Source of the DNA: Owenia fusiformis
Taxonomy: Eukaryota; Annelida; Polychaeta; Sabellida; Oweniidae
Assembly: GCA_903813345.2 (NCBI GenBank)
Contig: CAIIXF020000012.1
Span: 2,461,318-2,525,317, forward strand
Direction of reading: 5' to 3'
DNA: 64,000 bases
A program made the position numbers and the translations under genes. Positions 1,547 to 62,450 of this stretch are shown piece after piece. The notes beneath the pieces were generated by a model. The model searched no databases and was not told the origin of the DNA. It was given only the letters and a program-made list of their open reading frames with translations. How positions within the stretch are numbered: the first letter of the stretch is position 1; each line of letters starts with the position of its first letter.

Positions 1547-1685
1547 GCATTTCTCTCAAAAATTTGAATAAACCACCCAGTTTTCTGGCATTTCGTTACA
1601 ATTTAGAGTATAATCTACACGTCTGTTACCTCCGTTCCTTTGAAGTTCTCCTCTTTCGTGGTTAATTCTGCATTTCAAAAAGCCC
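1547..1685 (+). repeat. Family A interspersed repeat
   Basis: Family A reads roughly: CGTCTGCTCATGCTTATTTC; then ATTTCTCTCTAAAATTTGAA; TGAAGTGTCTGATTTTCTTG; CATTTCTATACAATTTAGAG; TATG; then about 15 bases; TTTATTCCTTGCTAATTCCA; ending near TTTTGCATTTTAAAATGTGA. This copy matches from the second block to near the end and lacks the first block. Confidence 0.75.
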
Positions 1686-2591
1686 ACTTCTGATATTTTA
1701 TCTATGAGGAGGTAGAACATGTAATTGATGAACATAAGGTAATTAGACCCATCATTAATAAGGATTATGGAGTAAACCCTGATTTTAGACTGGCATGGGG
1801 TGCTATGGTGCAATTACCTTACGGATAATAGACGTTATTCCAAATCTCTCGCATGCCTAGCAATCTGTCTTCTTCAAGGTTTAGATGAACTAAATTACGC
1901 TACGATTCATACATCATGCCAAAGAATCTATGGTTTACATACCATGATATTTAGAATTAGTGAATCGAACTAAAATTTCGTGTTCTTTATTTGATCCAAA
2001 TGCAAGGTATTTATTATATGTCTGTACCATAATTTTTCACCACCTGGTGGAAACTTAGGATATAGAAGGAATTGTTTTGCTAGGCTTAGAGTTAACCCCT
2101 ATAATTGTAGATAAGCTTTCATTTAGGGGCTTATCATTAGTTTTAACTCTTTCATGACTTGATGGGATCTCATGACAGAATCACAATTAGTTTTCGAACT
2201 GGAATTTCAGGTTAATTGCTAAATTTGCCACAAGAGGTGTTTTTGCATTTTGATTTACCAAAGGGTATTTCCAAAGAAAAACGAGGAGAGACCATTTCTA
2301 CTAAGTACATATATTCACATATTCTATGACTGATCCCAGAAAATACATCTATTGCGTAAATATTTGACTATTTCTAGATCATTGACTCTATGACTATTTC
2401 CTAGAATGTATATATAAGTGAATTACCCCCACAGCTATAACTTGACTGGTTACAAGAGTGCATACGTATAGGTTATTGCCTCCGTTTCTCTAAGAGGGGA
2501 CTTTTGTATTTACTAGAGCTATTAATCTAAACTGTTACTGTGGGGAAGTAAATTAACTTGGATGTGAAGACACTAGAGTCTGCCTAGATAT

Positions 2592-2822
2592 TTACTACCC
2601 TTAGGTCATCAGTATGTGTATTATACTCTGATTATGACCAATCATTTGAAGTGTATCTGTTGTATTAAGAGGGTGGGATGAATTCGATCACTTTTACAAA
2701 GGTGAGTTACTACCCTTTGGTCATCAATATGTATACAGTACTCTGAGAATGACCAGTCATGTTTCTGTCTAGTTTATCTGTTATTTTAAGAGGGTGGGAT
2801 GAATCAGTTACTTTTATTAAGG
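2592..2822 (+). repeat. Tandem duplication, ~115-bp period, two copies
   Basis: TTACTACCCTTAGGTCATCA (2592) and TTACTACCCTTTGGTCATCA (2707) start two copies that both run through TACTCTGA-, TATCTGTT- and AAGAGGGTGGGATGAAT, ending near CTTTTA. Confidence 0.9.
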
Positions 2823-3551
2823 GAATCAGTGCTATAATATATACCTATCCTATCGGAGTTAATATTTTCATTTTAAGCTCAGCTGTTTTTGTGTATATTT
2901 AACTTTATCATTGGAGAATTCGTATCATTTGACCTGATTCTGATTATCATATGGCGTATTGTTGCTATGGGGATCATTACATCATAATGAGCTGTATCCC
3001 TGTTTAATTCTCAAATGGAAAATATTTTGGTCCCCAAACTCCTGAGTACAAGAATAATCTCCATTTTATACTTTTAAATAAACATGCCAGAGCCCAGAAA
3101 TGGCATAAAATGAACAGTATCGAAATCACGAAATCATATTCGCAGTTCAAATCTCTGTTAACGCTTCAGTGAAGAAAGTGAAATATTACGGGACATCTTG
3201 CTTCCCATAAAGGTCTTTATTTTCAGTCGAAAAGATTCTGCATACAGATCTTCGTAATTCGTTCAATTACCCTCTTAAATATGTTGTTGTGCTGTATATA
3301 TAATTTAGTATGTTGATAAATTGGCGCTTGTTTATTTTTTAGCATTTTCTTATCTCTAAGGGAGAGAAAAATGGGTCTATTGAACCATATATTTTCTCAG
3401 ATATACCAATTACAGCTTTTAACATGGAATCAGTCTGAATATATGCACGCTATATACTTGTATACTTCTGATATGATCCTTTCTTGCAAACAAATATAAT
3501 TTCAGTTGTATATATTTTATACAATTCACTATTCATTATACTCTACCACAC

Positions 3552-3683
3552 CTCTTAAAAATTTCAATGAATTGCTTATGTTTTTACATTTCTCCATAAT
3601 TCAGAATGTTAGGCACATATGATCATGTTTATTCCTCGCTAATTCCCCTCTTTTGTCACGTTTTGCCATTTTAGAACATGACC
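3552..3683 (+). repeat. Family A interspersed repeat, diverged
   Basis: Matches through AAAAATTTCAATGAATT, TTTACATTTCT, TTTATTCCTCGCTAATTCC and TTTTGCCATTTTAGAACATG; the middle is diverged. Confidence 0.65.
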
Positions 3684-4449
3684 AATCAGATGTCCTTGTG
3701 TGGGTAGTCGTAGGTGAAGAAACTTGATTGATTTTCGTCATCTGTGATCAGAAATCTTCGCTATAGTATAGTCCGAGACATTGTTTTTACATATCGATCA
3801 GAGATAGTATAAGGACCCTTCACCTGACATAAGTGACTGTCTGTATTGATTGGTTTGCAAAATGTGATTGAATTATGCAAGATAGGGTCTCGCCTGATGT
3901 GTTTATGCATTTCAAATGTGGATTCAGGAGATGCCGTGTACTGAGTGATTTCAATTATTTCTAGACTTTTTCCATGCTGTATCGAAAGGCAATAAATTAT
4001 GTAGTAGAAAGTACTGGCGAAATATATATTTCTTAAACATAGCATGTCCAATCAGGCAATCAAATAACCCACTGGGGTTGTTCATCAAGAATATTGCATT
4101 ATGGGAAATCTAGTGACCATGATGACGGGTATATAAGATGTTGATTCGTCATGGCAGAACTCTATTGAAATGTGAAATCTATCACTTTACCCGTACATCT
4201 ATTCAATTACATATACCATAGACAATTATTCTCCAATATACACATTTGGGGCCACATTGATTCTCAAATTAAACCAATCATGCATATTCTCCCAATTCGT
4301 TATTTTTTATTGAATTATATGAATCTAGACTGATCTGCTTATAAGATGCATTGGTAACCCGTTATACATGTAACAAAATTAGCGGCAGGCCATCTGGTAT
4401 TATTGTTCAATATGGACTTCAATACAGAGAATAATATTCAATGTTTAAC

Positions 4450-4754: not shown

Positions 4755-6748
4755 ATGTTTAACAATCTTCTCCTATTGTTTGCTCCCCAGATGTACCTCT
4801 TGTGCATATTGGCAAATGACAGCTGATTCTGTACCCTTGTTTTCACTTTGATAATTCAAACCCAAGGTTATGAAATTGATCTCATTGGGATTTCTTCCTC
4901 AGGGCTGGGTGTAACATATGACAGGGGTTGGTTGTCAAACTTCATGGTTTTCTATGTAATCAAAGCAACTGTGTCATTCACTATGTTCCTCAATTGTTTG
5001 GTTGGATTCCTCAAATCTGATTGGTTGAATGGTTATTGAAAGAATTCTGGGTAGGGTCCTCCTTTGCTACATAATCATGACAGTGCTTAGATCTTTAACC
5101 CTATTAGCATCCTCCAAGAATTGTCCTGTCACCAGTAACTACCCTCTGGCAAATATTCTCCCCCTGGGGTGTCAGAAGTGACTAGCCTCCCCCTTAATGC
5201 AAATACCCTCTGGGGTAGCGTAATTAGTAACTATGTTCATCACTTTATATCCAAAGATTTCACTTGAAGAAAAGATTAAACAGTCTCTAAGTGATTGCTG
5301 ACCGCCATTCCTTCAAGTTTTAGAAAAATAATGAATTATGTTTTTGAGTATAGACTCACATACTTAAGCATTTGCGAGCATGCATCTTATTCATATTCAC
5401 TGTTTCAAATGAGAATCATTTCATGAAGTTCTTCGATATCATTTTTTGTGAACACTGGAAATATTTTGTAAAGAATAGCTTGACCAGTAAGATACATACA
5501 TGAATCAGAGAGTTCGATATTAGAGTCTCCAACTTCTTCATCAAGCCTTCTTGATCCTTTAGGGAAATAGGGATTCATACATAAAACATTGTGTTGTCTT
5601 TGTGTATTCTTACATTGTCTTAAGAAAAATGGAGATTTATCGAGGAATGGATGGGTCTGTATGAAGATGATATTTTGAATTTCAGAGTAAAGTTAGAAAA
5701 TTTGACAATTTGTATCAATTATATGAGGTTTTAGCAGAATAATGCAGATTTAGGGAATTATTTTGAGCTGGTTGAAATCGGGAATGAGCACTGCTCGTGT
5801 ATGTGTTACATTTATTCCTGATATAAGTTTTGTTTTTACAGAGATTTCCAACATCTCCGATGACTTGTAATGTGTTGTTGCACAAAATTCCCTCTTCGGC
5901 CAAAGTTAGGCTTCTTCTAAGGTCAATTTTTCAAGTCAGAGTTTGGTGAGAATGCAAAAATGCAATGTTTTGTCTTTGAACTGACGTCACTGGTCATTTA
6001 GGAAAACATGACGAGTTTTCCTTTATAGATTAGCTCAAGAATTATTGCCTAAAGCCTCTTGTTAAAAACTGTTCTGATTTAGGCATTATTCCCGCAATAA
6101 TTTAGTCTGGACTGTTTGAGTATTTATCACTATATTGCCTCCATGCCCTTTAGAAATTTTCCCCAAAAATCTAACTTTATCAAATTTCGCGAATTATTTT
6201 GAAAGCGGTGTCTGATTTTTTGGCAGTTTTGTGTAATAAAGAACATTCGCTTTTCATTTCTGGTTATTTCACCATGGTTCAAGCGATTTTATTAGTTGTC
6301 ACTATGGAAACTATGATCCTTTTGTACGCAGGATGGTTCCAGGATGAATGGTAACACCGCTCATGTGTTACATTAGAGTTCAATGAAAACACCGAGTCAA
6401 TTTTTCAAACATGAAATCCACCATTCTAAATTCAAGTCAGCATCCCAAATCATACGAAATGCAATTAATCTTACGTGTGTATCCATTTTCCATGGCCATG
6501 CTGTCATTTACATGGCCAGAGGGAAGCATATTTAGTTGTATTCTCGGACATCTTGCTACCCAGGGTACCGGTTACATGTGCTGAGAATAGTAATCTAGAT
6601 CTTCTCTATGCACTACCAATTAAAACCCCAATTTGTCGTACCACTGAAAATACAAATGACATAAAATCAGATTAAAGACACATGGCTTTGTTAGTGATGA
6701 TATAAATAAGCAATGTGGTTGGAATTTAATTTACTGATCTAATTTTGA

Positions 6749-10000: not shown

Positions 10001-10740
10001 AATCTGCCCGCCTGTCACATTGGGTACTGTAACCGAAGGCAGAAAATTAAACCTGATAATCTGAAATTGAATTGGGGTCCGTATATTAATCACATAACTT
10101 GGAATGTTCGGTTTGGTTTAACTCATTTAGTGTGATTTAGTGATTTTCTATTGCTTAAATGAAATTATAGAAAAAGCAGGCCAGTTTTATGGAGGATAAT
10201 GAAATCTTTGAGAAAACAGACCCGATTTGTCATTGAAAGTAGAGTACAGAATGTATCCATTCGACTTCGCTTCTTAATAGAGAACCTCGTCTTTGTTTAT
10301 AACTAGACTTTGCATGCAGGGTACGCACAGGATACACTATTGACTATTCGACCGTAGCACACAGGTCGATGAAATGCCTCGAAAATAAGGTGACAATCTA
10401 TTCGTTCATATGAGGACCGATACATGTTTCCTAGAGTCTGTGATTGGACTGTATATGCCATGTGGCTTATCCTCCGGGTCATCCTTTATAGAGGAGAGAT
10501 GTAACTGAGCAAAAGATACTTCATCTAAAAATCACCATAAACACGCTAAATTATGATTCAACTCAATTTTCAAGTATTTTGGAACAAATTTATGTTTCAC
10601 AGTCAGATGTATGTAATTCACGTTCATGTTTTTATTGGACACCCATCAAAGCTGCGTGCTATTAATTTGTTGAAACAACACTACATAAAGATACTATACA
10701 ATTTGATAAATGTCCAACTATTTTACAAAATCAATCCTGG

Positions 10741-10882
10741 TGGGCATGTTGTAAAATGCAAAATACATGTAAATTGAGAGAAATTAGCAAGAAATAAAGT
10801 GAACAGACATGAAGGGGAACCTTTGAATTGTATGGAAGTGAAAGAAAATCGGACAATTTATTCAAATTTTAGAGAGAAATCA
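10741..10882 (-). repeat. Family A interspersed repeat, reverse orientation
   Basis: Reverse-complement copy: GTAAAATGCAAAA, AATTAGCAAGAAATAAAGTG, TTGAATTGTATGGAAGTG, AGAAAATCGGACAATTTATT and CAAATTTTAGAGAGAAAT, in the expected order. One of the fuller minus copies. Confidence 0.8.
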
Positions 10883-13800
10883 AGGGAAATATGCAGGACT
10901 ATAAGGTTAAGTTTTACTTATTTGGTAGTGCTAAACCTGTGACATTGCACCTAATAACCTTGGCAACCACTGAATGAATCCTTAAAGCTGGTAAATAACC
11001 TCTAATTTTTTCGTTGATATTTGGGGGCCTTTTTATTATATTATATATATGAAATTCCAATATAAAATGTCACGTCATATCTAAAAGTGCTCACAGTCTT
11101 CAGACGGAGGTATTGTTTGTTTATATTTAGCGCACATGTGGTTTATTTGAAATGGTGGGAAAAATGTATTAAAATTTTATGCAAGGACCTAACAGTTGCC
11201 AAAAATCTTTGTTTTTATAAGCACAGTGATAGCTACTGTGAAAATTAATACATTGTTCATATTCCGAACAAAGACTCGGCAGGGGGAATTATGGGAAATA
11301 ACCATACCAGGGAAGTTATAGTAAAATTGTAAAAAGTGAATGGATGTTCGATATTGTTCCGGTTTATGGGCATAATTATGAATTTGTATAATCACATGGG
11401 GTATACATTTTCAATTTTTCTATCTCATGTTTTGTTTTACTATGGGTTTTTGGGTATGAAGAGGATTTATATGGTATATGGGGAAATGAGGATGAAAGGG
11501 GATGGGGAGGGGGAATGCGTGAAACAGTAATTGGATTTTGCTTGTAAACCTAAAAGTTATAATTCAGACTGTATTATTAAAGCAATTGCTTTCCCAAATA
11601 TATACATTTGATTAACACTTGGTTATTTAAAGAAACACATCTGTGAAATGTCCAAGATAAATACGAAACATTTCATAAAAGGTCGGTCATTGACGCTTTA
11701 CCGATAGCCAAAATCCAAATCTAAACTGGTATTATAGTAAGATTTGTAGATATAACACCTGTATTGAGTAACTTCTGTTCTTGAAACTTTTAAAGATTTT
11801 TACCTTTTGTGAGAACCTCTTGCCAAATATGGTATTGTTGCCCTTGTAAGAAAGTTTTAGCAACTTTTTGACATTATTTTTATGATGAATTTCATGGTTT
11901 TTGACTTTTGTGCTTTTGGTTTGGTTGTTGATCATTTGTTTGTTTGTTTCTTGATATCATTTTATGTAATCTTATGTAAGGTAATTTGATACACTGCACT
12001 TTAACATTCTATAATTTGACCTTACCAGAAATAATTCTTTCAACCCTTACAAAAATTCACATTGGTGCCACACATTTCCTCCCCTACAAAACAGTTATAC
12101 GATATAGAATAACGAATAGATATGGAAAATATTGTAGGAACTTATTAGGTAGAATTTTTATCTCAAATTGTTGAACAATTTGATGAATTACAAATATTAA
12201 TTTACAATATTAACATCATATTCATAAAGGTAGAACTTCAAAGATATTAGCCAAATGGATTAAACCAAAAATATGGTATTATACTTTGGTTATACTAGAT
12301 TTACATAACATCGGGGCAAACTTATGCAGTGAGCATTATACCCATACCTGAGACTGAAATCCAATATTTTAATACAATTGTTTAACGAAAACATTTCATT
12401 CCAATCTCATTTAATTTGAACTAATTGAACAAAGTTATGAATTTGGGTGTAAACAGAGTTGTATATTCTTATGGCACAAAAGAGTCATATTGGGTAATGT
12501 TATAGTTGTATGTACAAACTTTTGCTTCACTTATAACCATTTATCAAAAATCAAAATGCAGAGTTATGACTAGTTTGGTTACAAGCCTTTGTGACCCCCC
12601 ACTTCAACAAGTCCTGTGTGAGAAGGTGTGTTGTCAAGTAGGGGGGGGGAGGGGTGGGGGGGTCACAGGGTCTTGTAGCTGAGTTCAATCAGAGCCGGGG
12701 TAGGAGCAATCAAAATTTGCAGACTGAGAAAAGGAAATTTGAATTTATGCACCTAAAAATCAGGGTGTGAGAGGTCCCAGGCTTTATTAGAGTCTACCTT
12801 CTTATATTGTATTGTCATTATGTTCTTATGTATTGCTCTTGAACTATTCTTGTATGTAACTTTATTGGCAAAATCAATTGTGGTATCGTACCAACGACCA
12901 TACAACAAGCCACAAAACTTACATTCAATATATATATTCCATTTGTTATATATATTGTATTGTTATATGCTCCTATTAATAGTTCTATATAACCCATTTC
13001 CTTTTTATAAAGACTTGTACCTAAAGCCACAAATCATTGAGACATTTTCTCACATGGAAAACTAGCGCACGGTAAACAAGTTCTAAGTTTGAGTAAATGT
13101 TCCGCAGATCCTTTATTGATCAACAGAGAATAAAATACACATTAGAAAATACTTCAATCTCATGTTTATTACAATTGCATGGTGCAATACAAAAGTTTCA
13201 TGGTGATAAAAGAAAAATAAAACAATATTTACCAGTGAATTTTCCCTTTTGACAATGACTGAAATTCAAGTCAAGATTCTTGCTATATACCCTTTCAAAA
13301 GCTCCATTTGGCTTTTTTGCACTCTCATTATATTACCCTTTTCAAAAATTTGACTTAGTATCTCAAAAACAGTGTATATCTACATCGTTGCCCCGGGGCT
13401 TCAAATTGTTAATATGTTAGAGTACATGTGAGTGTACTAGATTAAAAGTTAGGATGTGTGTGGGGGTATCGAGGTCCCATTGACCCTATTTATCTCATAA
13501 TTGGAGAGGGGGAGGGTATAGTTCAAGCAAGAGTCAATGGTCAGACTCGGGTAATTTTTAAACTCTATGTATGAGGCTCTCTATAAGAGTTGTGAAGACA
13601 AGCTGTTTACAAAGGGTAGCTTTATACATGGCATCTCAAAATAAAATACATTATACACTACATGAATGTATATCCTTAATGGGTTCCGGCCTACTGGAGA
13701 TGTCCATTCTTAAACAACATATACAGCTAGTATTTTCCCACATAACTCACAAGTAGTTATTTTTGGTAGTTAAGGTGTACGCATAGAACTGTTCACATGT

Positions 13801-16519: not shown

Positions 16520-16534
16520 CGAATTTCTTTCAAA

Positions 16535-20166: not shown

Positions 20167-22684
20167 GAAGATGAGTAGTCGTGTGTTATATATCTATTTT
20201 ATAGAGATTATACGCAGACAGGTTTTTCTGTATTCTGTCATAGCATACTAAATCAATGCCAGAAATCTTCAAAAGATTTTTTAAAAAGCTGTCAAAATCT
20301 ATTATGTATTTTGACATATGACTTGAAGAAATCATGAAAACCTTTTTGTATTCAGTGCTCTGATACTATGGAATACAGGTTCATATATAAAACGGTAGAG
20401 TGTAATTATAGAATGTTGTATGGTATTGACTTCAATGTAAAATTGTAAATTGAAGCGAAGCAAATATTTGTAACTGTTTGTCTGTTTGCTTGTGTCTTCT
20501 ATAATGTTTTCACTACTGTTTTAATCTGTCAGAAGCTACCAGACGATCCAGTAGCGTTTTAGAATTTCACGTTGTTTGTTGAAGTCGAGGCGTGTACGTG
20601 GCATTCATATTGGGTTATATTTTGCATTTTATATGTTCAATCAAGTTAAGGTCGTTTATAAGACATTTGACAGCTAATTAGGTTTGGTTGACGTACACAT
20701 GTATTCGTGTTTAGCTATCATATTTACATTGGTTGTAAGTTCTCTATTCCCTTTAATCAGTTTATAAGTCTACAGACATAATAGGAATATCTGGTTTATG
20801 TTATTTTAGGGATTTTCAGTGTTTGAGTCTTTGATCACACTCTGAGGTACATATGTACATACCTCTGTATTCTTGATTACAAATTCTGTGTATTTGAAAT
20901 CGACCCCTGTAAAACTTCTGAATTATCAAAATGGTCATGATTTTTATCTCAAGATTTCTCAGAACTGGGAGAAATTACCAAGGATTAGTATACTCTGGTA
21001 TGAAGTAGATACCCAAAATGGTACAAAAGTGCCAAAAAGTCTGGCACTTCTTTCAAATATTTTAGAGAATTTTAGGTTATTTCGGTTGGTCTTTTGGTAA
21101 ATTTGGAAGAGCAAGGTTGTTCCTTGTATGTATTTATGTACTGTTGTCTTGGATTGCCTTCACATGAAACCTGAATAAATATTCACACTCCCCTGAGTGT
21201 ATTGAACCAACGTGTGTATCTTCAATACAAAAACCACTAGCATTTTGACGTCCAAAAGTACCTCAAGGTCTATTAGATCAAAGAGATTTTCGATCGAGGT
21301 GCAGTATGTCATTATTGCCACCATTGATAAATATTGTGCGTAGAATATAGAATAAAAGGCGGGAAGTTATAACTACGGAGGGGATGTGTAAATAATGGGG
21401 CAACATGTTTACCCATTCTTAGAGGTTTATGTATACGGTATTCTCCTTTGTGGTTAACATATAACTTATGCTCCATTCTGATAGTTGTGTTTTCTTCAAA
21501 TTGTCTTCAGATTCTTCAATGTTATATTGTTTGATATGAATGATAATAAGTGGGTCGTATAAGACAGAGTTGTATTCTGTACATATAATATGCTGTAGTA
21601 AGAAGGAGCAATCAGTGAGAGAGCATGTTAGGGGAATTTGATAATCTCTAATCCTGTTTGCGAATATTGGACAAATGTTCCCTATTCAGTAAGAAGAACA
21701 ATTTACGCGCTTTAACGTCATTCCCTCCTCCTCAGCCTGATATCTTAAATCTAAAGATCGCAATTCCTGCAGTCATGGCAGTGGTCATACATCACCTAAA
21801 GGTCAGCGTGGTCTATTATCGAAGTATGATCTAAATTGGGGACATTTTCTTCACAACCAATCTTCAGAGATTTCTAAATCAACCTTGGATGTAATGATGT
21901 TGAAAATACCAACTTGACTTGTGTTAAGTCATTTTAAAGAAAGTGATATATTTGAAGGATTACACCAGGAAAAGTCATTTTGATGGTTTCTATTTAGAAC
22001 CCCATGGGCTATAATATAGATACATCAGTTTATATATGCCAGAGCTCCATTTTGGACCAAATATAACCTTTCATTGAGCCTTCAGTAGGCAGAGAAGGTC
22101 ACAAGGGCTCAAGTCAATGCACAGCAAAATAGATTCAATATGTACCAAATGACATATTTGAAAATATAGAATATATAAGATAAAAAGGTTCACACGATTT
22201 TTTGAATGCTTTCTATATTGATTCATATGGTCTACATTGAAAACACATAAAAAGGGATTTTGTTTATTGAACACTGAAGTATATTCGAAGTAGGTTTCTA
22301 AAGAATTCTATGGTTCATTTAGAGATGAATAAACTTGGGATACTTTTTTATGAATTTTCCCTTTCGTGAAAATTGCAATCACATGATGTTTATAGGAAAG
22401 GTTTGGATTCTATTTCAATTTTAGGGTCATTAATGTAGATTTCTATTTGGGATTTTGTTTGACTGTTTTAGTGTTATTTTAGAAATGATATAGTGTAAGT
22501 CTGATATCCTATGTCAGTGGTAGACTTATATAGCAGGGTAACCAATTCTGCTAAAGAAATATTGACACGTGGATTAGGCCTCTAGTTTTATACCAGTCCC
22601 CCAATAATGGTACAATGGGTCATGGTTTGAAATCCAAAATTATGGGGAAAGCATGGATTTTTCCAAGAAGGAATTATATGGTGA

Positions 22685-22762
22685 TGTAGTTAATATTCTA
22701 AATTGTATAGAAATGTTAAAAAATCAGGGTGTTCAGTCAAATTTTTGAGAGAAATTGTGCGA
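22685..22762 (-). repeat. Family A interspersed repeat, partial, reverse
   Basis: Contains ATTCTAAATTGTATAGAAAT, AAAAAATCAGGGTGTTCAGT and CAAATTTTTGAGAGAAATTG; the 3' section of the consensus is missing. Confidence 0.75.
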
Positions 22763-23209
22763 TTTTGAAATGATCTCTGGAAGTTTTGCGTCAGGGTGCT
22801 CATAGAGGCAATCACTCTTACCTTTCTCTTTGGCTTATAACCCCAAATATTTTCACAAAATAAGAATTTGAATACGATTTAATTCAACGATTTCACCCAT
22901 ATGTAAGTTTTATATATAAGTAGAGAATTGTATGATAGGTTGTTTTCTTTTTGAGGTTTAATAATGGTTTGATAATGTGCTGTAACTTATGAGCTGAGTA
23001 CAGTTAAACAATATTTTTGAACACCTTTTCAGTTTCAAATAATACATGTCAGACTTTCAACACAAGTACTTTCTTTCTAAAAATATGTTCAATCTTGCAG
23101 GTTTTACTATGTTTTGATAATTTGAAATCTAAATCCCAGATTTTCTTAATTTATTGTTGTTGCAGGCTGGGTCTCTCATTAACCTGTAGTTCATCAGGTT
23201 GAAATTCAG

Positions 23210-23223: not shown

Positions 23224-24139
23224 CGTATCTTGATTGATAAAAGTTGACCTCTCTTGGACATAAGACCTGAATGATGAGGTGCAAAATTTCAAATTCTTGT
23301 TTCTTCATTTTCCAAGCCATAAGGTTTCTAGTTGTGCTGTTAATACTATACTGACATGTGTACCATAACATTGCTCCCTGGCATGAAAATAACAATCAAG
23401 GCACTGTCTTTCTTGAAATATATAAGATGTATATGTTTTTTATTTGTCAGTTAATCCTCATGAGGCTTTCCTGTTTCAGTCTCATATATTGTTGTTTTCT
23501 TCTGATATCACTCCCTCTGTTTGTTTGACACTTATATCCATGGTAACTGTTACATTTCATTCCCAGGTGTATTCCTCTAAACCTCTCCCAGGATCCTTTG
23601 CTTGTTTCCTAGGTGATATTCCAATTTGTTGTGAACACTGAAAATGAACTTTTTCAGGGAAGTTGGCTCAAAATGACATTATAATGGTATCATTACACTA
23701 ATTAAAACTCAAGCAACATGAATGTCATTGATATCTTATTAACCCTTTTATTCCAAACCATAAATACACTCTCAGTCTTGACATTTCATTAGGGTTTTAT
23801 TCTAAACTCTTTTCAAGCATTTTCTAATAAAAACTTAAAAAAATTAATTAAATCACAGGGTATTTGTGTGAGGTGCTCAAATTATTTATACTTTGCTATA
23901 AATGAAGAAAACAACATAATTTTTCATAAATCACACTAAAAGTAGATTGCATAAAAAGTTCTCCACAGTTCAGTGGCTTTGTCCTTTTATTGAATGAAGA
24001 TAACGGAGTGAGAAACTGGGAACTTTTCAATATATTTCAAGAGCTCCTTTGATGAGACTTCTGTAGAATATAATAATATCAGAACTATTCATTCAACAAT
24101 GTATTGAATCCCTTGATGAAAATTACATAAGTGTCACTC

Positions 24140-26113: not shown

Positions 26114-26255
26114 GAATTAGCATGATCACAGTGAAATTATAAATATAGGCAACCCAGTCACTTTCAGTGATGTATCTGCTGTGCTTCACTACCTTCTTTC
26201 ACAGATCTAGGTTGAAACGTCCAAACCAAAAGATATGTCACTTTCTTGCTTTTTT

Positions 26256-40165: not shown

Positions 40166-40248
40166 AAGTGCATTATGGTTAGTGGCAAGTGCATTATGGG
40201 TAGTGGCAAGTGCAATATGGGTAGTGGCAAGTGCATTATGGGTAGTAT
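40166..40248 (+). repeat. Minisatellite, 21-bp unit, 4 copies
   Basis: AAGTGCATTATGGGTAGTGG plus C, repeated at 40166, 40187, 40208 and 40229. As 21 is a multiple of 3, an ORF across it reads a seven-residue repeat (GKCIMGS), but nothing else supports coding. It carries the same GCATTATGGG core as the duplicated segment in the short intron. Confidence 0.95.
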
Positions 40249-41049
40249 ATTAAATGCCTTTTGTGATCTCATTGTTATTTCAATTTTTTAATTAAATCTC
40301 TATTTCTTCACATAGGAAAATAGTGCTTTCAAGTATCTACTTTATCAAAGGGATATTTTATATACATGTATGTCATATAAACATAAATTTGTTTGAGTTT
40401 CACGTCCAGGACAATGAAAAAAGCAAACACAAGACAAAGGATCAAACAAAAGGCTGAAAACTATTTTGAACAACTGCCAATTATGATTTAAACACATTTG
40501 AAGTTGACTTTAACAATAGAGTGTATTGATGTGTATGTTCTAGTTCAGTATCATCTTTTTGAAAACATCATTGATGTGAGTATTTTTGCCATTTTAACCT
40601 CCTCTTTATGAACATTTGCAAAGGTTTTCATTAAAAGATATGATAAAACAATCCTACACTGGTTTTGTAATAGGCAAAGGGCGAGTGGGATGACAGACCT
40701 CATACAAGACAAGCGCATATATCTAATCCCCTGCCTGCTATATTTGCATTGGTTTCCTTTGACTTGATGTAGAATTGGCAAACAGATACTAACAAAGGTC
40801 ACGCTGACCTCTAATTCGATGATCCTCATTGAGGAGGCTTTCTGAAACATAAAAACCTTCCCTGTCATTTCAATCTGTGCCGCAGTAAAGATATTACTAC
40901 GTATTTCATCCTACAATAGCCTGATCACTGCACTATAGTATTATGGGATGGAACCCTGTACGAATAAGACAGATGATGTTGTTTTCTTTGATCCGTTACT
41001 ATGGCAATAAGATGAATTTGTAAGAAATTGAATAAGCAGGTATACAGTT

Positions 41050-41136
41050 GATGGTTTGAATTGTATAGAAGTGTTAAAAAATTGAACACTTCTTCCAAAT
41101 TTTACTCAGTAAATTGATCTGTTTCGTGACGTCTGC
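41050..41136 (-). repeat. Family A interspersed repeat, partial, reverse, with a forward 5' block beyond it
   Basis: GTTTGAATTGTATAGAAGTG, AAAAAATTGAACACTTCTTC and CAAATTTTACTCAGTAAATT in reverse orientation. A forward-orientation GACGTCTGCTC (41128-41138) follows at once, as expected for the centre of an inverted pair. Confidence 0.65.
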
Positions 41137-41957
41137 TCTATATCAAAAAGGGGCCCTGGCATTATGTAGCAGCAATGAACCTAATAAACCAGTGATTGTG
41201 TTGTTATTGTATAAATGGAAAGGCAATCATAGCATTAACGAGTTGATCAGGCGGGGACAATTATCTTCGCCCTCAAAATTATATTCCCTGCAATTTCTTC
41301 CTAATTTCACAAAAAGAGAGGAATATATACATCGTCTAATGAACATACACAAATAGGACCCCTTGTACAGTTTATGCTCAATAGAATATTGGTTTCTTCA
41401 TTAAGTGCTGTTTAAGAATTGAGAATGTTTCTTCCTATGATGGGTAATGGAATTTAAGGGTCCCTGCTTCTTCATAAATAATATATTCCATTCTAGTATT
41501 ATCCCACACACGCTTTTTATCTTCAAACGGTACAGGTATATATTCTGTAATAATGACCTTAATGAAGAGATAAATATATCATGACATCCATCCGATTCAT
41601 GCAATTTATACAATGTGATTTCAAAAATGTTGTATTTTTGTATACTTTGATTATTTTATAACAGAATTTATTGAAATAAACATGCTGTGTATCATTACAC
41701 GATTTCATTAGCAAAACGATTATTTTACGATTTATCATTCCTGAATTGCTTATTTGACGAAATAATGGTAAATATTGTATTGCAAACACATGCAATAATT
41801 AAATGGATGAAATCTCGGATTTGCAAGCTGTGTTGTCTGTCATATCACTGAGATCTTCATTTCGTCATAAAATATCGAATCAGTCACGTTTTAAAGCATG
41901 AAATACTGCGTTAAACAGGGGTCCTAGCATGGAATAAAATATACACACATAAAGTAT

Positions 41958-42020
41958 GCGCTGTTAATTGTATCAAAGCAAGAGAAAATGTAAAACTTTA
42001 TTTAAATTTTTTAGAGAAAA
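41958..42020 (-). repeat. Family A interspersed repeat, weak partial copy
   Basis: GTTAATTGTATCAAAGCAAG, AGAAAATGTAAAACTTTATT and AAATTTTTTAGAGAAAAAGA follow the reverse consensus at right spacing. Confidence 0.5.
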
Positions 42021-42526
42021 AGAGGAAAATAGGGATGAATGGAGAATGATTTCAAGTATGGGTGTTTCAACAAGCATGGTGATATAAACGATGATTCAAT
42101 ATGTAAAAAAGTTTTTTTTATTTGTTTTATATGTGTTTCATCACCAGCTGTTTTCTGTTTTGAGGTTTTAATGAATGAAGGTTTATTTTTACACACAGTT
42201 TATTGTGTTTGGTTGATTATGGCTGTTCATTACAGGGAGAAACTTTGTAGTGGCACGATAACCTGAAATGTGTTTTGTCTGACAAAGGGGTATATGTATG
42301 CTTTTAATAAATTGTAAGGTTAATGTGTCCGCTATTCGGGATGGGAGGGGGTGGAGGGTCTACCTGCTGTATTTCATCATGAATGGTGTTTGAAAATATG
42401 AATGAAAATTGATTTTATGAATTTTTAGTACTTATGGGAACTGATGCGAGATTGTTCACTTGTTTAAGATTTTATTAGTTCATTAGTGATGAAAAATCGT
42501 CTTGACGTACTTCCATAGCTAATAAT

Positions 42527-43561: not shown

Positions 43562-43818
43562 TGCATTGCTTTACAATTATGGTATTCATGCATTGCCATT
43601 GTGGTATTCAATGTATTGCTATTATGGTATTGTTGCATTGCCATTAAGGTATTGATATATTGCAATTATGGTATTGATGTATTGCAATTATGGCATTGGT
43701 GCATTGCCATTAAGATATTGATATATTGCCATTATGGTATTGATGCATTGCCATTATGGTATTGATGCATTGTCATTACAGCAATGGTGCATTGCTATTA
43801 TAGTTATGACACATTGCA
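43562..43818 (+). repeat. Minisatellite, 22-bp unit, about 11-12 copies
   Basis: Degenerate tandem of GCATTGCCATTATGGTATTG plus AT. Variants include TATTGCAATTATGG and GCATTGCCATTAAGG. It lies 22 bp before the 122-bp palindromic element at 43841. Confidence 0.93.
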
Positions 43819-45547: not shown

Positions 45548-45904
45548 GTAAATACAGTAAGAAATAAATATGTTCAGGAGTAAATTGGCGTTTACTTAGC
45601 AGAGTAGAAGAACGTGAGGGTCAATAGATACAACTCTTGTGCAAATCTACATCTTGTTGATAGTGGGAAATTAGCTAAACCTAGAATGTGATAAAATGGA
45701 GAAAAATATGATAACTTTCAAGAAACTTGACCCAATATTGACGATTTCTGCACACTTAGTACAAAAGTCAAAAATGAAATTAGCGAATCCGACATATGGT
45801 TAGAGATCACTCGTGACTTGAGAACCTTTGAGAATCCTGAAGCTTATCTTGAAATAGATTATGTATATAGGAACCAACAAAAAATAGAGTTATCAGGAAT
45901 GTAG

Positions 45905-45973
45905 TTCGTACTCTTATTGTAAAGAAATGCTAAGAAATTCATATATAGTTCTTTCAAATTTTAGTGAGAAATT
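45905..45973 (-). repeat. Family A interspersed repeat, partial, reverse
   Basis: ACTCTTATTGTAAAGAAATG, CTAAGAAATTCATATATAGT and TCTTTCAAATTTTAGTGAGA correspond to the central part. Confidence 0.65.
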
Positions 45974-46692
45974 TGGCCAGAAAACCTGGGCATCAATTTC
46001 CCTGTGTTAATTCCCATTGGTCTGAAATAAGCATGAACGGCTGTTGAGATTCCGGAGAAATATTTTTAGTGAGATAACTGGATATCTTAATCAAATTATG
46101 AAATACATCCGAACTATCAGGATATCCACGCCTTTATGTTTACTTAACATTGTTCAGCTCTTACGATAATTGCTTAATAAGCTTGTGACATCACAGCGCA
46201 TACACGCAAGTTCTTCATTTAGATTAAGAATTTCTGATTATTTCATATCGATATCTTAGAAATAGGTCACATGATATTTTTTCTGATTGTTGGATCATGA
46301 ATGTTTTATGTATTTGTGATTAGAATATATATTTATTTTACTTTGATGTAATAGTCTTTGGAGGTAGGGGGAGGGGGCTTGGGAGAGGGGAGAGGAGGGG
46401 GTCACACAAGTTATATCGACAACCACCAAAACTAAACAAAACAAAGATAACAGTGCCCCATTGACACATCATACCCGAGAATAAATTGGTGTTAGAATGA
46501 CTTATCATTATCCCATTATTGTATATATTCGAGAAATATATATAACCCATCCAGACTTGAATAAGTACTATTTCCATATCAGTTTATGGGCAAATTTTGT
46601 ATAAGCCAGTTAACACATCAATGATAACTTTTCTAATAGGATCTCAGATAAGCGTGGCATCTCTGGCATGGACTACTCCAAAAGATTTCACA

Positions 46693-46852
46693 GACGTCAC
46701 ATTTATTTTGTGTTATTTCTCTCTAAATTTTGAATGAAGTATCTGATTTTCTTGCATTTATATACCATTTAGAGTACGATCTTCACCTCTGTTAATTTTA
46801 TTCCTCGTGAATTGATCTCTTTTTGCCTATATTTTGGATTTAAAATGTGTCT
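46693..46852 (+). repeat. Family A interspersed repeat, near full length
   Basis: GACGTCACATTTATTTTGTG, ATTTCTCTCTAAATTTTGAA, TGAAGTATCTGATTTTCTTG, CATTTATATACCATTTAGAG and GGATTTAAAATGTG. Well preserved. Confidence 0.85.
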
Positions 46853-47185: not shown

Positions 47186-48286
47186 TTTCTTGTTTCATTT
47201 TCGGGCTACTGGACCCCTTAATAAAGGAAAACAGGGGCACAGTATTTGAAATGACCAAACCAGACAAGCATGATGTCAGATGTCAAGTTCTTTTTACTTC
47301 AGTTTATATTAAAAAAATCTGACAGATCGTTTAGAATCATTTGAGAATACCTGTCACCAGAAGACTTATATCTTGTCGAATAATTACTGGCTTAGATTGC
47401 CTAAATAAATATCGTTCAGTATGTAGTACTATTTATTTAGAAGGGATAAGATAAAAGCTAAATCAATACAGGTGAACGTCTTCACAACCATCAGCGTTGC
47501 TGTAACTAGCCTTTTTGTAGCCGAGTAATTTACCCATTCTTAAATTTTCATTTGATTGTGAGATCTTACAAGAAGAAATGGTCTGCGAAGCTACATGATG
47601 AAGGAAAGGATTATGGGAAACTGGGAAATCTGAGTGTAAAAAATAAGGCTGGTTTATATCTAAGATTTTAGGGCGAATTTGCAATCAGATTAGAATCTTT
47701 AAAATGGGTTGATTTTATCATATTTAGATAAAAGAAGGTTTTTTGATTGTTTACACTTATATGTTGTTAAGCATTGTTTATGGTGTTTATTTTGTATTTC
47801 TTGGTTTCCTTTGTTTCACGGATTCTATCTCATGTACTTCAATAAATCTCTCAATTTTCTTCATTAACGATTTACATTTTTCGGAATACCCCATCGTCTT
47901 ATTGCTGGATAATGAAAGTTAACGTGGTCATATCCTGATCATTGGGCATTGACTTTTCTCATTGTGGGATTCCCAAGGGGAGGATGTAAGTCCGCTCTCA
48001 CATGAAAGATTCAAATTAACTGAAAAATGGTCGTGTTTCTATGTAATAGGCATTGTTTCTCTTAACAAATGAACGCAATTCAATCAGCTGAATTAAATGA
48101 AATCATAGTTGTTAATTCATCATTGACAATAGCGGGTGAAGTTATTTGGAGTTGAAACCTTAATTGAAGCTCAATAAATAATTGTCTTGTTATCGCTACT
48201 TGTTGTATTGTTTCTATTATTCTTCTCGTCCTGCAAATAAATGCTCGCGACGAGGATGTTTGTCTCGAATATTTCAGAGAAAATGG

Positions 48287-48400
48287 GAGAATTAGCAAGG
48301 AATAAATAAGGTAGATGTGATGTCTATAGTCTAAGCTATCTGAAAAAGCAAGAAAATTAAACACTTCAGTCAAATATTTTAGAGATATTCGTGAAATTAG
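48287..48400 (-). repeat. Family A repeat, reverse arm of a second inverted pair
   Basis: GAGAATTAGCAAGGAATAAA, AGATGTGATGTCTATAGTCT, AAGCAAGAAAATTAAACACT and TCAAATATTTTAGAGATATT. A forward copy starts 160 bp further on at 48561. Confidence 0.75.
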
Positions 48401-48560
48401 GATGGTTGCACGGGAATATTTTGTCATGATTTTATAGTCTAAAGTTTCCTGGAGACTACGTTCATTATTGCAATGTTTTTCTTTTTATTACATGGAAAAT
48501 ATAAAGATACAATTGTACTACATTGTTTTGTGTGTACGAGGAAAAGTGACTATGAAAATG

Positions 48561-48725
48561 TCCGTCTGCTCATGCTTATTTTATGTGATATTTATGGTAA
48601 ACATGAATGAAACACATGATTTTATTGCATTTCTCTACACTTTAGAGTATCGACTCCATTATGTATAATTCATTCCTTGCCATTTTCTCTCTATTCATTA
48701 TATTTTGCATTTTGTAACATGATGC
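48561..48725 (+). repeat. Family A repeat, forward arm of a second inverted pair
   Basis: TCCGTCTGCTCATGCTTATT, ACATGAATGAAACACATGAT, TTGCATTTCTCTACACTTTA and TATTTTGCATTTTGTAACAT; full span about 165 bp. Confidence 0.8.
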
Positions 48726-55968: not shown

Positions 55969-58584
55969 GTTTATTCTATGGAATGAATCTATTCTTAGAT
56001 CAATGACTTCTGAAATATCGGCAGCCAATCAATATCATCCCGTAAAGTCACATTGAATTTAAACCTAAATAAACGGAAACACAACTTCATTGGTGTAACT
56101 TTACACATACATTGATATATTCTATGGATTCATTCTAGAAATGATGGGTTTTCCAAGAAATTTGCACCATATTTGGTCGATGATACAACCTCGAGTCGTG
56201 GCATAAATTTTGGTTGAATGATCATATCTGAGGGAGGTTTCAAGTGAGATATCCCTTAGGAGAAACTAGGAGATATAGTGAAGCAATGTGGCATTACCAT
56301 GGCAACAAAATAACAAATATACAGCATAATCAACCATATTTGAATTAAGTTCCAGATTGATTCATAACAAAACAAATTGCAAGAAATTTATACCTCTTTT
56401 ATGCCCGGACATATTATCTTTTAGATTTAATTAGACCTTTCCTGGTATTTTACGAGCATACTGGTATATAAAATTAAGTAACTTGAATAACATTTCTTCT
56501 GTACTAATATCAAACCATTCGATTCATTATCATGATTACAGATAAATTTGTTTATTTACTGAGTGATAAAACATGCATAAGGAATCTCAGTTAAATTTTC
56601 TCTTTTTTTGTTGATCCCGTTTTTCGGGAAATCAGGAAATAGGTTTCATGATAGTACCTGTTATATGCAATCATTGATGGTAATAATTTATGATCTTAGA
56701 CAAAATTCTAGTAAAATGCATTGTGTCATTTTAAACTGTTCACCAGAATAGGTTTGACTGTTGTTAATACCATGGTATTCATTATGTTTTGATGTTTTGA
56801 TGGTACGTAAACCATAGTGATGACCTATACACATTCACACACATTTAGTCTGGTCTTTTCATATTTGTTTACAAACCAGTGATTTATCTGTTAAGACCTT
56901 CTCTAATGGCTCCTTATCAGCTGATTAAAGATGCACAAACACCTACTATTTATATTTTGTCATGAAAAATGAAGTAAAAAATATTATATATAATGCTGGG
57001 GGAACTTGTAGAGCTTAACGGATGCTGTATTCTAAAGTTTCACCATAAAAACATACCCCATATCAGTGTATGAATGAATAACATTTTCATTTTCTTTCAT
57101 GAATTCAGGTTTTCAATTTCACAGATCGATGGGTTGTCTCATATATGCGATACAAGTGTTCATGTCGGCTTAAATGCATTGAAAAATTTATGGGTTTTTA
57201 CTTATTTTTTTATGGTACAGTTCTATAACGTTAAGAAGTTTAAATGTGTTATATCTTATCCATGGCCTTACATATATGTGAAGATATGATTAAAAGTGTT
57301 ATGCTGATTAATCTGAACAATTTATGAATGTATGAGCACAGGTCGTGTTGACCTTCATTGTCTTTATGTTTTCAAATCGGCACCAGATGTCTCTGATAAG
57401 GTAATGATGACTTGTAAAGTTGAAATAATTTAAAATGACATATTGAGTTCCTTACTTTGAAAGATGTGTCATCATATATGAAGTAAGTGCTATATCCACT
57501 TTGTAAAGGACTTTTGGGCAGGTGGGGTAGAAGTCTTGCACTGAGTCTGTGGACACCCCATATTTACCACTACTAAAGGGTGAGGTTTCAAGGATAGGGT
57601 AGGTGGGGGGGGGGTGTTAGGAGGTCAATCAAAACTAGTGGGTTAGGACATCATGTATAAATCTCAAATAGAAAAATTGTAATACGATGAGTATCAGAAT
57701 GGGTTAGGGAGATAGTATACATATACATGTTTCGATTACTATTGAGTTGTCTCTTAGCATGAGGCTATTAAAATAATAACTTCAAGATTGGACATCTGGT
57801 GTGATTTGACTCCTGATCTTCATTCTACAGAATCACTTTGGACTATGATTAGCTCTACCTTGTGGTTACCTTTGACCCTAAAGTTTGACCCCTTTCATTT
57901 TCACTTCCTCTGTTGTCAAGTAATACCATATGCTGATACTGTACTGGTTGGGAAGAGTGGGAGAGGGGGGGGGGTGGTATCAGAAGAGGCAGGTTCAAAA
58001 GGGGAGGAGCTAAGGTGAGGCGGAGCTTCTAAAGGGAACACCCCACCCATCAATTTTACTTATCTTTTTCACATGTACTCATATCAAAGCCTAGATATTG
58101 CATGTTTAGCTTTTAATTGCCATTATTTGACCTTATTTTATATACCAGACTTATCCTATGGTTTATTATACATGCGTTGAACTCTCTTTGATGTTTATGG
58201 TATTTGATAGACTGATATGGATATAAATGTATATAGTGAATACATGATAATCATATACAAAGCTAGAGATCTGAATTTAAAACTAGCTCCTCAGAATATA
58301 CCTGTATACCTATACATGTATATATATATATACCACACAAAGGGAAGGAAATGAATACCAACAATTCTTTTTTAAGATTTGGAAAATCATTTCAGTATGT
58401 TACATTACCAGTTTATATTATCAGTTCTATGCCTTTTTACAATGTTATTTCTCCATAAAATTACTTAAGATTTTCTTAATTTATTGATCAGTATGTTTAA
58501 GAAAGATGCACTGACATGAACTTACTCGATGTACAATGTACATACAGCTGATCCTTTTAATATTTGATCAATCCGTTTCAAAAT

Positions 58585-58750
58585 GTCCGTCTGCTCATGC
58601 TTATTTCACATCATTTCTCTCTAAAATTTGAATAATGTGTCTGATTTTCTTGCATTTTTATATAATTTAGAATATGCACTTCATATCTGTTTACTTTATT
58701 CCTTGCTTATTCCACTCTTTTCCACATTATTTCAAGTTATAAATGTGACC
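58585..58750 (+). repeat. Family A interspersed repeat, best-preserved full-length copy
   Basis: GTCCGTCTGCTCATGCTTAT, TTCTCTCTAAAATTTGAATA, TGTGTCTGATTTTCTTGCAT, TATATAATTTAGAATATGCA, TTTATTCCTTGCTTATTCCA and TATAAATGTGACC. This copy is closest to my consensus and sets its approximate ends. Confidence 0.88.
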
Positions 58751-59832
58751 CCATGGTGTTTTCCCCATTGGTGCTATCCACGTAATTTTGACATGTGACA
58801 AAATGTAAAGTTTTTACATTTCTTTTTTATTTTATCAAATCAGCAAATCAATATTAATTGAAAGTAGATTAAACTATAAAATAAATCAATCATTGTTAAT
58901 GTCATTATAGAAGTGTCGAAGCTCTAAAATCTGAAATATCATCTGATTTTCGTGTTTTTAGGCATTAATAATGCACCGATGCACCTTTTATCTAATGAAT
59001 TGGCCCAAGATGTTAAAGTTAGCATGAGAGATGGTTTTGCAGTTGATCAAGTTTCTCCATATATTTTCAATTATCGGATGACTGACTAAATCTTCAAAAA
59101 TAGACTGCTCTCCTTCCAAAATGTTTATCACCTTATATTACTCCACGCTACACTCTTATATAACTACATGTACATTAAGTAGTTCAAATTATGTTTTCAA
59201 AAACAGTGGAAATGGATACCATGTCAATTTTAGAGAGATTTCTCACTTATAAGAACGATGATCAAAGTATCAGGACGTGGAAACTATCATGTCTCGAATA
59301 TGAGAAACAAAGTGTCCTTCCTTTAACGAAGAACTTACAAATCATCGGTATCACTCAGGCGTGTAAACTCTTAAGGTTTCTTTGATATCATGATCATATT
59401 GGTTTAGTCTCTCAGGAAGCACCAAACCGTAAATTCGCAATTATTTTCAATCTCCAGAATGATCAAGTTTTACTCTCAACTGTCTCGGAATAAGCAAGAT
59501 TATGTATGGACTATTATACTTTGATGTGGAATATTGTGAAAGCATAGGATAATATTTAAAAAACACAAAACAACCAAAATCTGTTACCCGGGTAACCCCT
59601 CCCATTAAATGTTTATCGAACGGGAACCATGAATTCATTTCTGAAATCAAAATAACTGTTTTTGTAACCAAATGAATAAATCTCTTTTGTTTACCTGGAA
59701 TTTTCTTTCTATGGCCTTTACCAACACCTACGTGTCCATGAATGGAATGCCAATGTAAATAATAATAATGCCTTTCCTTGTCAAATCGAGAAAAATAGGA
59801 GAAATGGAGGGGAGTTAAGTCTGTTGTCATAT

Positions 59833-59900
59833 AAACCATGCTCTAATTCATACAAAAACGCAAAGAAATCAGGCACTTTATTCAAAATCTTGAGAGCAAA
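59833..59900 (-). repeat. Family A interspersed repeat, partial, reverse
   Basis: GCTCTAATTCATACAAAAAC, GCAAAGAAATCAGGCACTTT and ATTCAAAATCTTGAGAGCAA in order. Confidence 0.65.
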
Positions 59901-60346
59901 CAACTCAAATAACCGTAGGGTGAGTGATATCGTCTGCTTTATTTTACTATGAATCAGACGTGAAGTGTAGATATTTGATGTAATGTAGACGTACAACACA
60001 GTTTCTCCATTATGGCAAAAATCTAGTAGAATATATGTCAATATAATGGTCATTAGAATTAGACTGTTTTATATCACACACAAAAGCTTCTCGTTTATAT
60101 TAATTTCAGGTGGATAATCACCTTATAACGATCATAAAAATTACTATTGTATATTTTCTTGCCTGGAGATGCTGCTCAATATAGTGAAAGGATCTCTGCT
60201 TTTTGTCTTGCATGATGTCTTTGGATCATTTCCTTCCCCCAAATATATCCTGGGGTAGGACAGTATATTACTTATGATGGGAGAAATTGAAAAGATAAAG
60301 GGAGAAATATTTTCATAATATAGAGAGTAATGTTTTCTTACACTCC

Positions 60347-60531
60347 AGGCGCGTAACCAGGCATATGCGAGAATACGCAGTGTGTACTCTTATTGATGGA
60401 GCGGTACCCCATTACACAGTCTGATATCGCTCAGAACGCACCATTTAAGGTCTAAAATCAAAATTTGTAGGACCCCCCTGGTTTTGCTCAGCCTCGCGTA
60501 CCTGCTGTCAAAATCCTGGTTACGCCACTGT
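60347..60531. mobile_element. ~185-bp TIR element with GCGTAACCAGG ends
   Basis: Left CAGGCGCGTAACCAGG and right CCTGGTTACGCCACTG are inverted repeats matching at 14 of 16 positions. The base composition (CG-rich, AGGACCCCCCTGG) stands out from the AT-rich surroundings. A target duplication is not clear. Probably a decayed DNA transposon of the same general kind as the element at 28809. Confidence 0.6.
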
Positions 60532-61371
60532 ACTCGTAGGCAGGGCAAGGGGTGGGGTCATTGACTTATATCTGATAGTTTGTTAGGAGATGAAGAGTCA
60601 TTGAATATTAGACCTAAAATCCGTCGCTAGTGTTGCATCGCTATACAAAGTCAGCTTAGAGTTGATACGCTCGAGCATGGCCTCCTATAGTGTATATTAG
60701 CACAGATATGTAGGCACTCTCCTTTGATAACAGACAATAGCTGGAACATCCGCATACGTAAATAATTGTATGTATCTTGGAAGTCATATTGTAATAAACA
60801 TTAACTCTCTCGCTCAATTTACGATCCATCATAACGATCTCATTGAATCTCTGTGATTTTGCTTTGATTAATAAGACCTGATATTCAATTTACACAGAGA
60901 GCGGAGTTCAAATTAACGGAATTATGGCATTATTATGTTTTTCTGTATTGAATAATGAAACCGATTACTGTACTGTATCGAGTTTCATTTTTATGACGTT
61001 TTCTGATACATGACTACCTTAGTGGGTGATGATAGAGTATTGTGCAGAGATGGAAAGAAATGATATCGGAGATTTTTATTGAGGAGAAAAAAATATGAGA
61101 TGATTGTTTAGCTACTCATCATGTTACAGATAGTAATTCTTGAATTGGCTTCCATAATTAATACATTGATATTCGAGATGCTATGTTCTCTTCATTCAAT
61201 CTGATCATTTACTCTACGTATATTAAATCTAGTGTCATTGATACCGCAAGTTTTTACTCTATTTTTTTCAGAGATGTCCTTTTTAGATATTTCAGTCAGA
61301 TTACTTGCTTGTTTTTTTACTTTATTTGCTCAAAATTGAAGGACATTTATTGATTCTAAATTTATTCTAAC

Positions 61372-61431
61372 GATTGCGAGCCTCTTGTAAAGATTGCAAA
61401 TCTCTTGCAAAGATTGCAAACTTATATGAAA
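61372..61431 (+). repeat. Tandem repeat, 20-bp unit, 3 copies
   Basis: GATTGCGAGCCTCTTGTAAA, GATTGCAAATCTCTTGCAAA and GATTGCAAACTTATATGAAA at 61372, 61392 and 61412. Confidence 0.85.
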
Positions 61432-62341
61432 TGCTAACTCTTTGTAAGGAATTGGAAACACGTGAGGTTCTACAAATCAATTCCCAGAGGGTTTGTAGCA
61501 ATCAATGGGACAATGAGTATTGATGACAGTTTCATTTGATTGACATGATAGACTCGAGATGAATAATAGTATCGCAGTGAAGGCAACGGAAGAAGGTGAT
61601 TGGCATAATCTGTTAAATGAACAGGTTAAGATGAGTTCTCTTGGTGTTATTTTGTAGTAGTTTCTAAAGATCAGAAGAAAGTGCAGAGTAGGCAAGGCTC
61701 ACAATTTCCTGCCATTATCCCTATATAAATTAGCGTAGGTTTGAACTGTATTAAACAGTACTTGAACAATTTTCTAAGATCCCTGTGATCTTCTCTGCTT
61801 TGAATTTAGTCCATAATTGAGAAAAAATCTGGATGCTTTGAATATCATGACAGTTTTCCTCTAGCTCGAGAAATAATGTGATGGACAGTTTCAAAGGTAA
61901 CGAGTTTAGGGAGACAAGAGTTTAAATATTTTGAAGGTCAATGGTGAGGGACCTCAAGTATGAGGGGGAGGGGGTGTAATCGATGACTTAATCAAAGACT
62001 ATACATAGAAAGTTAATCATTAAGGTTGCATCCGCAGCAACCATGAAAATATTCATCTTCACATTTTGTAGGTCGAGTCCAACCAGACTTTGATTTTCCG
62101 AGAATCATCTTCATCATTTCACCTAGAATCTTTCGACAACTTAAATCTTAAAATATACCTACAAAACCCATGTGCAGTAATTATGTTTGAAGTTTGCCGC
62201 AACAGCAGAGATAAAAGCCGTCTGCTATCACAATTGCTTTGTACCTTCTTAAACAGGAATCAGACTTACATATAAAGTGTATATACCGAAGCACAAAATG
62301 TGAATTCGGTCATGTTTTATTTCACCGATTTCATTAAAAAA

Positions 62342-62450
62342 GAGGAATAATCAAGAAAAAAAATTATACACACATGAAGTGAACATTCTAAATTGTATGT
62401 AAATGCAAAAATTTCAAACAGTTTATTCAAATTTTGAAGAGAAATTATTG
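62342..62450 (-). repeat. Family A interspersed repeat, reverse
   Basis: GAGGAATAATCAAG, ACACATGAAGTGAACATTCT, AAATTGTATGTAAATGCAAA, CAGTTTATTCAAATTTTGAA and GAGAAATTATTG. Confidence 0.75.

Follow-up and report, generated by a model that had tools for sequence, protein, structure and literature searches.

What is the short repeat, here called family A, that recurs along a 64-kb stretch of the Owenia fusiformis genome (the window, C12:2,461,318-2,525,317, in an assembly that totals 498 Mb and has 12 large contigs, each 31.9-62.2 Mb long)? The initial annotation, made from the letters of the window, had described an interspersed repeat of ~165 bp with at least 17 copies. Our analysis indicates that family A is probably a non-autonomous miniature inverted-repeat transposable element (MITE) of ~185 bp bearing terminal inverted repeats (TIRs). 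A DDE transposase, most likely one of the Spy group (PHIS superfamily), would mobilise it in trans and join it between AAA and TTT without duplication of the target. The kind of element is already known; the family itself was not found in the literature searched.

The repeat, its ends and its insertion site

An nhmmer profile was seeded from 12 of the 17 places listed earlier, later refined, and searched against the window with a cut-off of E < 1e-3. The seed profile gave 21 matches and the refined profile 22, and all 17 of the listed places were matched, which upholds family A as a real repeat. The same search of control sequences (the reversed window and five order-1 Markov sequences) returned 0 family A matches, so that the comparison with shuffled sequence also came out in favour of the family. 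Nine of the matches were non-seeds, eight with E values of 2.6e-25 to 1.6e-7 (1532+, 21069-, 42068-, 3552+, 41104-, 45977-, 59942- and 24111+) and the ninth, 35507+, with E 2e-4 in the seed profile search; the result is therefore more than the recovery of the seeds by themselves. Gapped identity to the consensus was tried as a measure and set aside as uninformative, because random segments reach a median of 0.60, and significance accordingly rests on the nhmmer E values and the controls.

Genome-wide pattern counts, which count core units and hence count arrays more than once, gave 259 exact copies of a core 20-mer, 543 places for a core 50-mer at up to 3 mismatches and 752 places for a second core block at up to 2 mismatches, with 0 for the backward pattern in each case. 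With hundreds of core units and common ends in the genome, family A is a dispersed family rather than a mere local duplication, the alternative that the initial annotation had named. A search of the literature by words gave no mention of it, and in a search by sequence the 12-mer CGTCTGCTCATG occurred only in papers titled on human or cattle subjects, longer terms being absent. No match was obtained in a Pfam scan of 10 of the 76 window open reading frames of at least 75 aa.

Alignment of copies fetched genome-wide showed an element of ~185 bp, longer than first proposed, outside both ends of which the flanks are unrelated. The left end is sharp, AAAATGTCCGTCTGCTCATGCTTATTTCAC, and the right end reads ...AAAACATGACCACCATGACATTTT; in outline, AAA is followed by ATGTC-N7-TCATG... 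on the left, and ...CATGA-N7-GACAT is followed by TTT on the right. Read inward from both ends, this is an imperfect TIR of 17 bp, ATGTC-N7-TCATG, in which N7 differs by end (CGTCTGC left, ATGGTGG right). These short inverted ends had been overlooked when the repeat was said to have no simple TIR; they lie mostly beyond the first and last blocks then recognised, and are eroded in most window copies. Family A thus combines the features of a MITE, being short and non-coding, with a TIR and many copies that share common ends.

Short interspersed nuclear elements (SINEs) are marked by a polymerase III promoter derived from a small RNA, a 3' tail and a target duplication. An origin as a SINE or other RNA-copied repeat would suit the short, non-coding and dispersed nature of family A, but the window holds no Rfam match at the gathering threshold, no tail is seen in the aligned copies, the flanks reveal no target duplication (below) and the ends are inverted. 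We give such an origin practically no credence, and the earlier statements that the repeat is not a standard SINE and has no poly-A tail stand as far as tested.

Target-site duplication was sought at 25 offsets in 28 flank pairs, which represent 27 insertions because L044 was read on both strands. No direct repeat of at least 4 bp was found in more than one pair, and no TWA or AT duplication at any of the offsets. In the genome-wide alignments, AAA flanks the element on its left and TTT on its right. Among 20 copies picked by AATGTCCGTCTGCTCATG, which were chosen as absent from the left-end listing, a choice that works against A, the preceding base was A in 18 and the next base outward was A in 12, as expected if the outer As are part of the target and not of the element. 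A weak, symmetric target bias is present separately in 33 left flanks, with C at -9, -8 and -7 in 16, 15 and 10, and in 31 right flanks, with G at +7, +8 and +9 in 12, 12 and 11 (pooled p 1.3e-4 at positions 8 and 9 and 3e-3 at position 7, with position 2 also at 1e-3, among 25 positions tested). No empty site was found in the genome for 16 joined flanks, in a search that skips very common words: 32 of the 33 matches fell at the loci themselves, and the other was a partial 46-bp match.

Between the ends, the core is tandemly repeated at 105-bp steps in some loci, with six units in L013 and five in L021. A single core unit was present in 54 of 56 loci and an array in 2, in a set biased toward single units. 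The core was also found at all 20 further left-end loci examined. Left-end loci without a core, considered as possible autonomous copies, numbered 0 among these 20, out of 96 exact left ends. The monomer has two similar stretches of ~20 bp lying ~105 bp apart (16 of 22 positions identical at lag 106). Slippage between the two is plausible and may have produced the arrays.

Bivalve pearl elements and DINE-1/Helentrons likewise have fixed ends and a variable number of core repeats. The 1 to 6 core units found between the fixed ends of family A resemble this arrangement, and would be compatible with a Helitron-associated or pearl-like element moved by rolling circle. Helitrons and Helentrons are marked by the lack of a TIR, a 3' hairpin and insertion in AT or TT, and pearl and DINE-1/Helentron elements are not known to have a TIR of the family A kind; family A has inverted repeats on both sides and, within the same biased set, arrays in only 2 of 56 loci. 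We therefore consider rolling-circle movement very unlikely. Tetris/TIR-220 of Drosophila virilis (PMC4079207) resembles family A in being an apparently non-autonomous DNA transposon with tandem repeats that expand to longer arrays, but it is foldback-like, with ~220-bp repeats inside its TIRs, whereas family A has a 105-bp core between short ends.

Proposed assignment to the Spy group

Spy transposons are a group of eukaryotes that moves by cut and paste and is distinguished by the absence of target duplication; they insert within AAATTT without duplicating it, and are under development as a gene-transfer tool (PMC4482050, PMC11304231). We favour a Spy-like origin for family A because its absent duplication and flanking AAA and TTT are this published signature. 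The presence of a TIR (5-691 bp in Spy, PMC11304231) and an animal host are further points of likeness. Family A differs from published intact Spy elements, which are 1,165-5,910 bp long and carry a transposase, in being ~185 bp long and non-coding, with ATGTC ends (PMC4482050, PMC11304231). Membership of Spy is only probable, since no transposase gene with the family A TIR was found among the stretches examined, and no empty site. A Spy transposase would act on family A in trans and would move it by cut and paste. As a natural non-autonomous family with clear ends, family A would indicate how short a DNA element suffices for such a transposase, and would reveal a weak palindromic target beyond AAATTT.

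The genome contains at least 150 PF13359 matches (150 scored of 269 candidates), and a THAP domain was found in 3 of the 6 proteins scanned. L134 and L140 (C1:59.30 Mb and C4:4.26 Mb) are two copies of a 3.5-kb DDE_Tnp_4 element with 99.9% identity and differing flanks. The pair ends in AAAGG...CCTTT, with no target duplication, so insertion of the Spy type occurs in the Owenia fusiformis genome, and the element is a probable recently active Spy transposon.

The frequency of PF13359 matches also suits a different assignment, in which family A would be a MITE of another TIR superfamily, e.g. Harbinger or ISL2EU, with its duplication hidden or absent and with AAAATGTC as true element sequence. 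ISL2EU transposases carry a THAP domain (PMC4482050), as do half of the proteins scanned here, and there is no empty site to set against this assignment. The 28 flank pairs, however, contain no TWA or AT duplication at any offset, and the outermost A, present in only 12 of 20 copies, behaves as a base of the target rather than of the element. We regard a Harbinger or ISL2EU origin as unlikely.

Several observations weigh against the Spy assignment and the movement proposed with it. The family A TIR was at the ends of none of the 16 PF13359 stretches examined (of at least 150 matches), which represent about 10 different elements, with several copies of one, and in which a stretch of 4-5 kb may miss an end; a single match to the right-end TIR, with 3 mismatches and located within the coding region of L133/L143/L146, was taken as chance. 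The Spy-like L134/L140 pair has a TIR unlike that of family A, beginning GG. Several right ends in the flank-pair test were decayed and placed approximately, and AAA/TTT is not formally separable from a TIR beginning AAAATGTC, because no empty site was found. The 16/22 match at the tandem spacing does not exceed the 99th percentile reached by shuffled sequence when all spacings are considered. Local hopping predicts related neighbours, and the nearest relative lay on the same chromosome for 48 of 130 copies, only modestly above chance (shuffled mean 30.7, maximum 52 in 2000 shuffles). Finally, whichever end selects the set, the opposite end is more eroded: copies picked for their left end often have an eroded right end, and of 20 stretches picked for their right end, L080 alone has the GTCTGCTCATG left end.

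At least 4 of those 20 stretches (L075, L082, L083 and L084) show a preceding core unit, as members of arrays, and would not be expected to have a left end; in several others TCATG and the AT-rich block that follows it are retained, with a different N7. The likeliest explanation of the varied left ends would be that an older subfamily had a different N7 on the left. A left end identical to the right TIR was rejected, a 30-mer with the right-end N7 having 0 matches genome-wide at up to 3 mismatches, although single copies such as L077 come close to this form. In-place inversion of the left CGTCTGC, suggested near window positions 41130 and 59931, was rejected as a general feature by the same measure (30-mer, up to 3 mismatches, 0 genome-wide).

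An inverted CGTCTGC does occur at or beside the left end in four copies, namely L076, L089 and two in the window; in L076, L089 and at 41130 and 59931, inverted CGTCTGCT(CATG) stands at or beside the left end and the usual left end is absent. The eight CGTCTGCT motifs that lie within 100 bp of a copy in the window are all on the plus strand, regardless of the orientation of the copy. At C3:5451692-5452068, four right ends of family A with a common orientation fall within 380 bp; they may be a small array that grew from the right end and not the core. At L140, a family A copy (739-869) abuts the DDE_Tnp_4 element. A THAP and DDE_Tnp_4 element is present at L133 and L146 (C9:14.33 Mb and C4:5.85 Mb), with 99.9% identity between the two places, and has a 21-bp TIR at L133, TATTCACCTTTCCCCAAAGTC.

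Chromosomal distribution and age

The chromosomal confinement is the interesting part of family A. The complete list of exact left ends comprises 96, of which 51 are on C10 and 15 on C4; C1, the largest contig, has 0 against an expectation of about 12. All 51 on C10 lie between 28.1 and 37.4 Mb of 37.5, in the final 9.4 Mb. Two other complete lists agree with this one in part. Of 72 left ends at up to 1 mismatch, C10 has 42 and C4 has 14; of 68 right ends at up to 3 mismatches, C4 has 26 and C10 only 6. In both lists every C10 entry is beyond 28 Mb and C1 has 0. C1 is not quite empty, because one place on it appears at 2 mismatches.

Clustering within 100 kb of another copy was seen for 71 of the 96 exact left ends (uniform mean 3.8, maximum 17 in 2000 runs). 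It holds within the C10 tail (48 of 51; uniform mean 33.3, maximum 45), on C4 (12 of 15; uniform mean 1.2) and outside C4, C8 and C10 (11 of 26; mean 0.46, maximum 6 in 5000 runs). PF13359 matches, used as a control, are spread out, the 150 scored including 13 on C1 and 5 in the C10 tail, and the C10-tail share differs between family A and PF13359 with a Fisher p of 2.6e-20. Family A clusters tightly on some chromosomes and nearly avoids others.

Sampling of 33 unselected or position-chosen stretches (115 kb) gave family A at E < 1e-3 in 2, with three copies in one 5-kb stretch of C4 and one copy on distal C10. Five further stretches on C4, distal C10 and distal C8 had no copies at E < 1e-3, and a C11 stretch had a weak match (E 0.004).

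A tentative account, to which we assign somewhat less than even weight, is that of a no-duplication MITE confined to domains, dense on the small C4 and the distal quarter of C10, in isolated 100-kb clusters elsewhere and nearly absent from C1, through very short-range transposition or targeting to a domain property that other DDE transposons of the genome ignore. Within the favoured Spy-like reading, the clusters would be best accounted for by short-range reinsertion, perhaps aided by a preference for certain chromosomal domains. Set against the scattered transposase matches, the confinement of family A offers an opportunity to ask whether its accumulation is governed by local hopping or by chromatin domains. 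The boundary on C10 near 28 Mb is abrupt, with 0 of the 51 exact left ends before 28.1 Mb, and may mark a domain or an old chromosome fusion.

The window copies are old: the 20 C12 rows, which can include L107 beside window copies, differ on average by 27% from the majority sequence. Mean divergence is 11% for C10 rows and 14% for C4 rows, which were mostly chosen by similarity and do not compare like for like with C12. The closest distinct pair among the 130 copies is 5.7% apart; another pair, at 0, represents a single place that was fetched twice. On this comparison of sequences a single source would have given rise to copies that mostly inserted independently, any regional structure being weak at most, and the well-separated copies may stem from a star-like burst of independent insertions. 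Chromosome-specific subfamilies were rejected, the 130 copies giving only a weak signal.

The copies in the window

The density of the window is not typical of the genome: 22 copies lie in its 64 kb, and none in 25 kb sampled as eight stretches no more than 0.18 Mb away. One exact left end lies 11.6 kb beyond the window. From this density, the empty stretches nearby and the divergence of the C12 rows, the window is one more local cluster, made up of old copies.

The best copy, at 58580-58754 (plus strand, 143 bits in nhmmer, as for the scores below), has an exact left end and a right end recognisable to about 58762. On the plus strand, the CGTCTGC left end is kept at 30622-30783 (120 bits), 34862-35030 (109 bits) and 35683-35851 (118 bits), and the left end is eroded at 1532-1681 (87 bits); 3552-3687 (65 bits) and 46696-46850 (95 bits) are further plus-strand copies. 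Two pairs are arranged head to head, 25967-26137 (minus, 106 bits) with 26248-26397 (plus, 77 bits), and 48275-48415 (minus, 70 bits) with 48555-48722 (plus, 94 bits), the last having an exact 27-bp left end. Minus-strand copies lie at 10735-10906 (117 bits), 22617-22763 (84 bits), 45868-45991 (55 bits) and 62306-62467 (81 bits); a partial one at 41001-41112 (49 bits) has the inverted CGTCTGC beside its left end, and one at 59780-59927 (59 bits) has it at the left end. Five copies were absent from the earlier list: 20926-21072 (minus, 78 bits), 24134-24289 (plus, 52 bits), 41877-42039 (minus, 74 bits) and the two weakest, a fragment at 6176-6271 (plus, 28 bits) and a copy at 35423-35570 (plus, 39 bits).

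Some diverged window copies keep a perfect left end, which, together with the strong confinement to chromosome domains, is what a regional sequence kept by function would show, for example a non-mobile, domain-marking element recruited on particular chromosomes. The unrelated flanks, the occurrence of both orientations and the decay of the window copies speak against such a function. In five window copies whose left end is good, the body too is better preserved than in most others, and the age of a subfamily, rather than selection keeping the left end, might account for their ends. A younger CGTCTGC-bearing subfamily, as a proposed cause, would explain the left-end contrast more simply, and we hold a function of this kind to be extremely unlikely beside the transposition of a MITE.

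Short tandem repeats with 21-22 bp units, unrelated to family A, are also present in the window at 27132-27451, 43576-43801 and 40162-40246.

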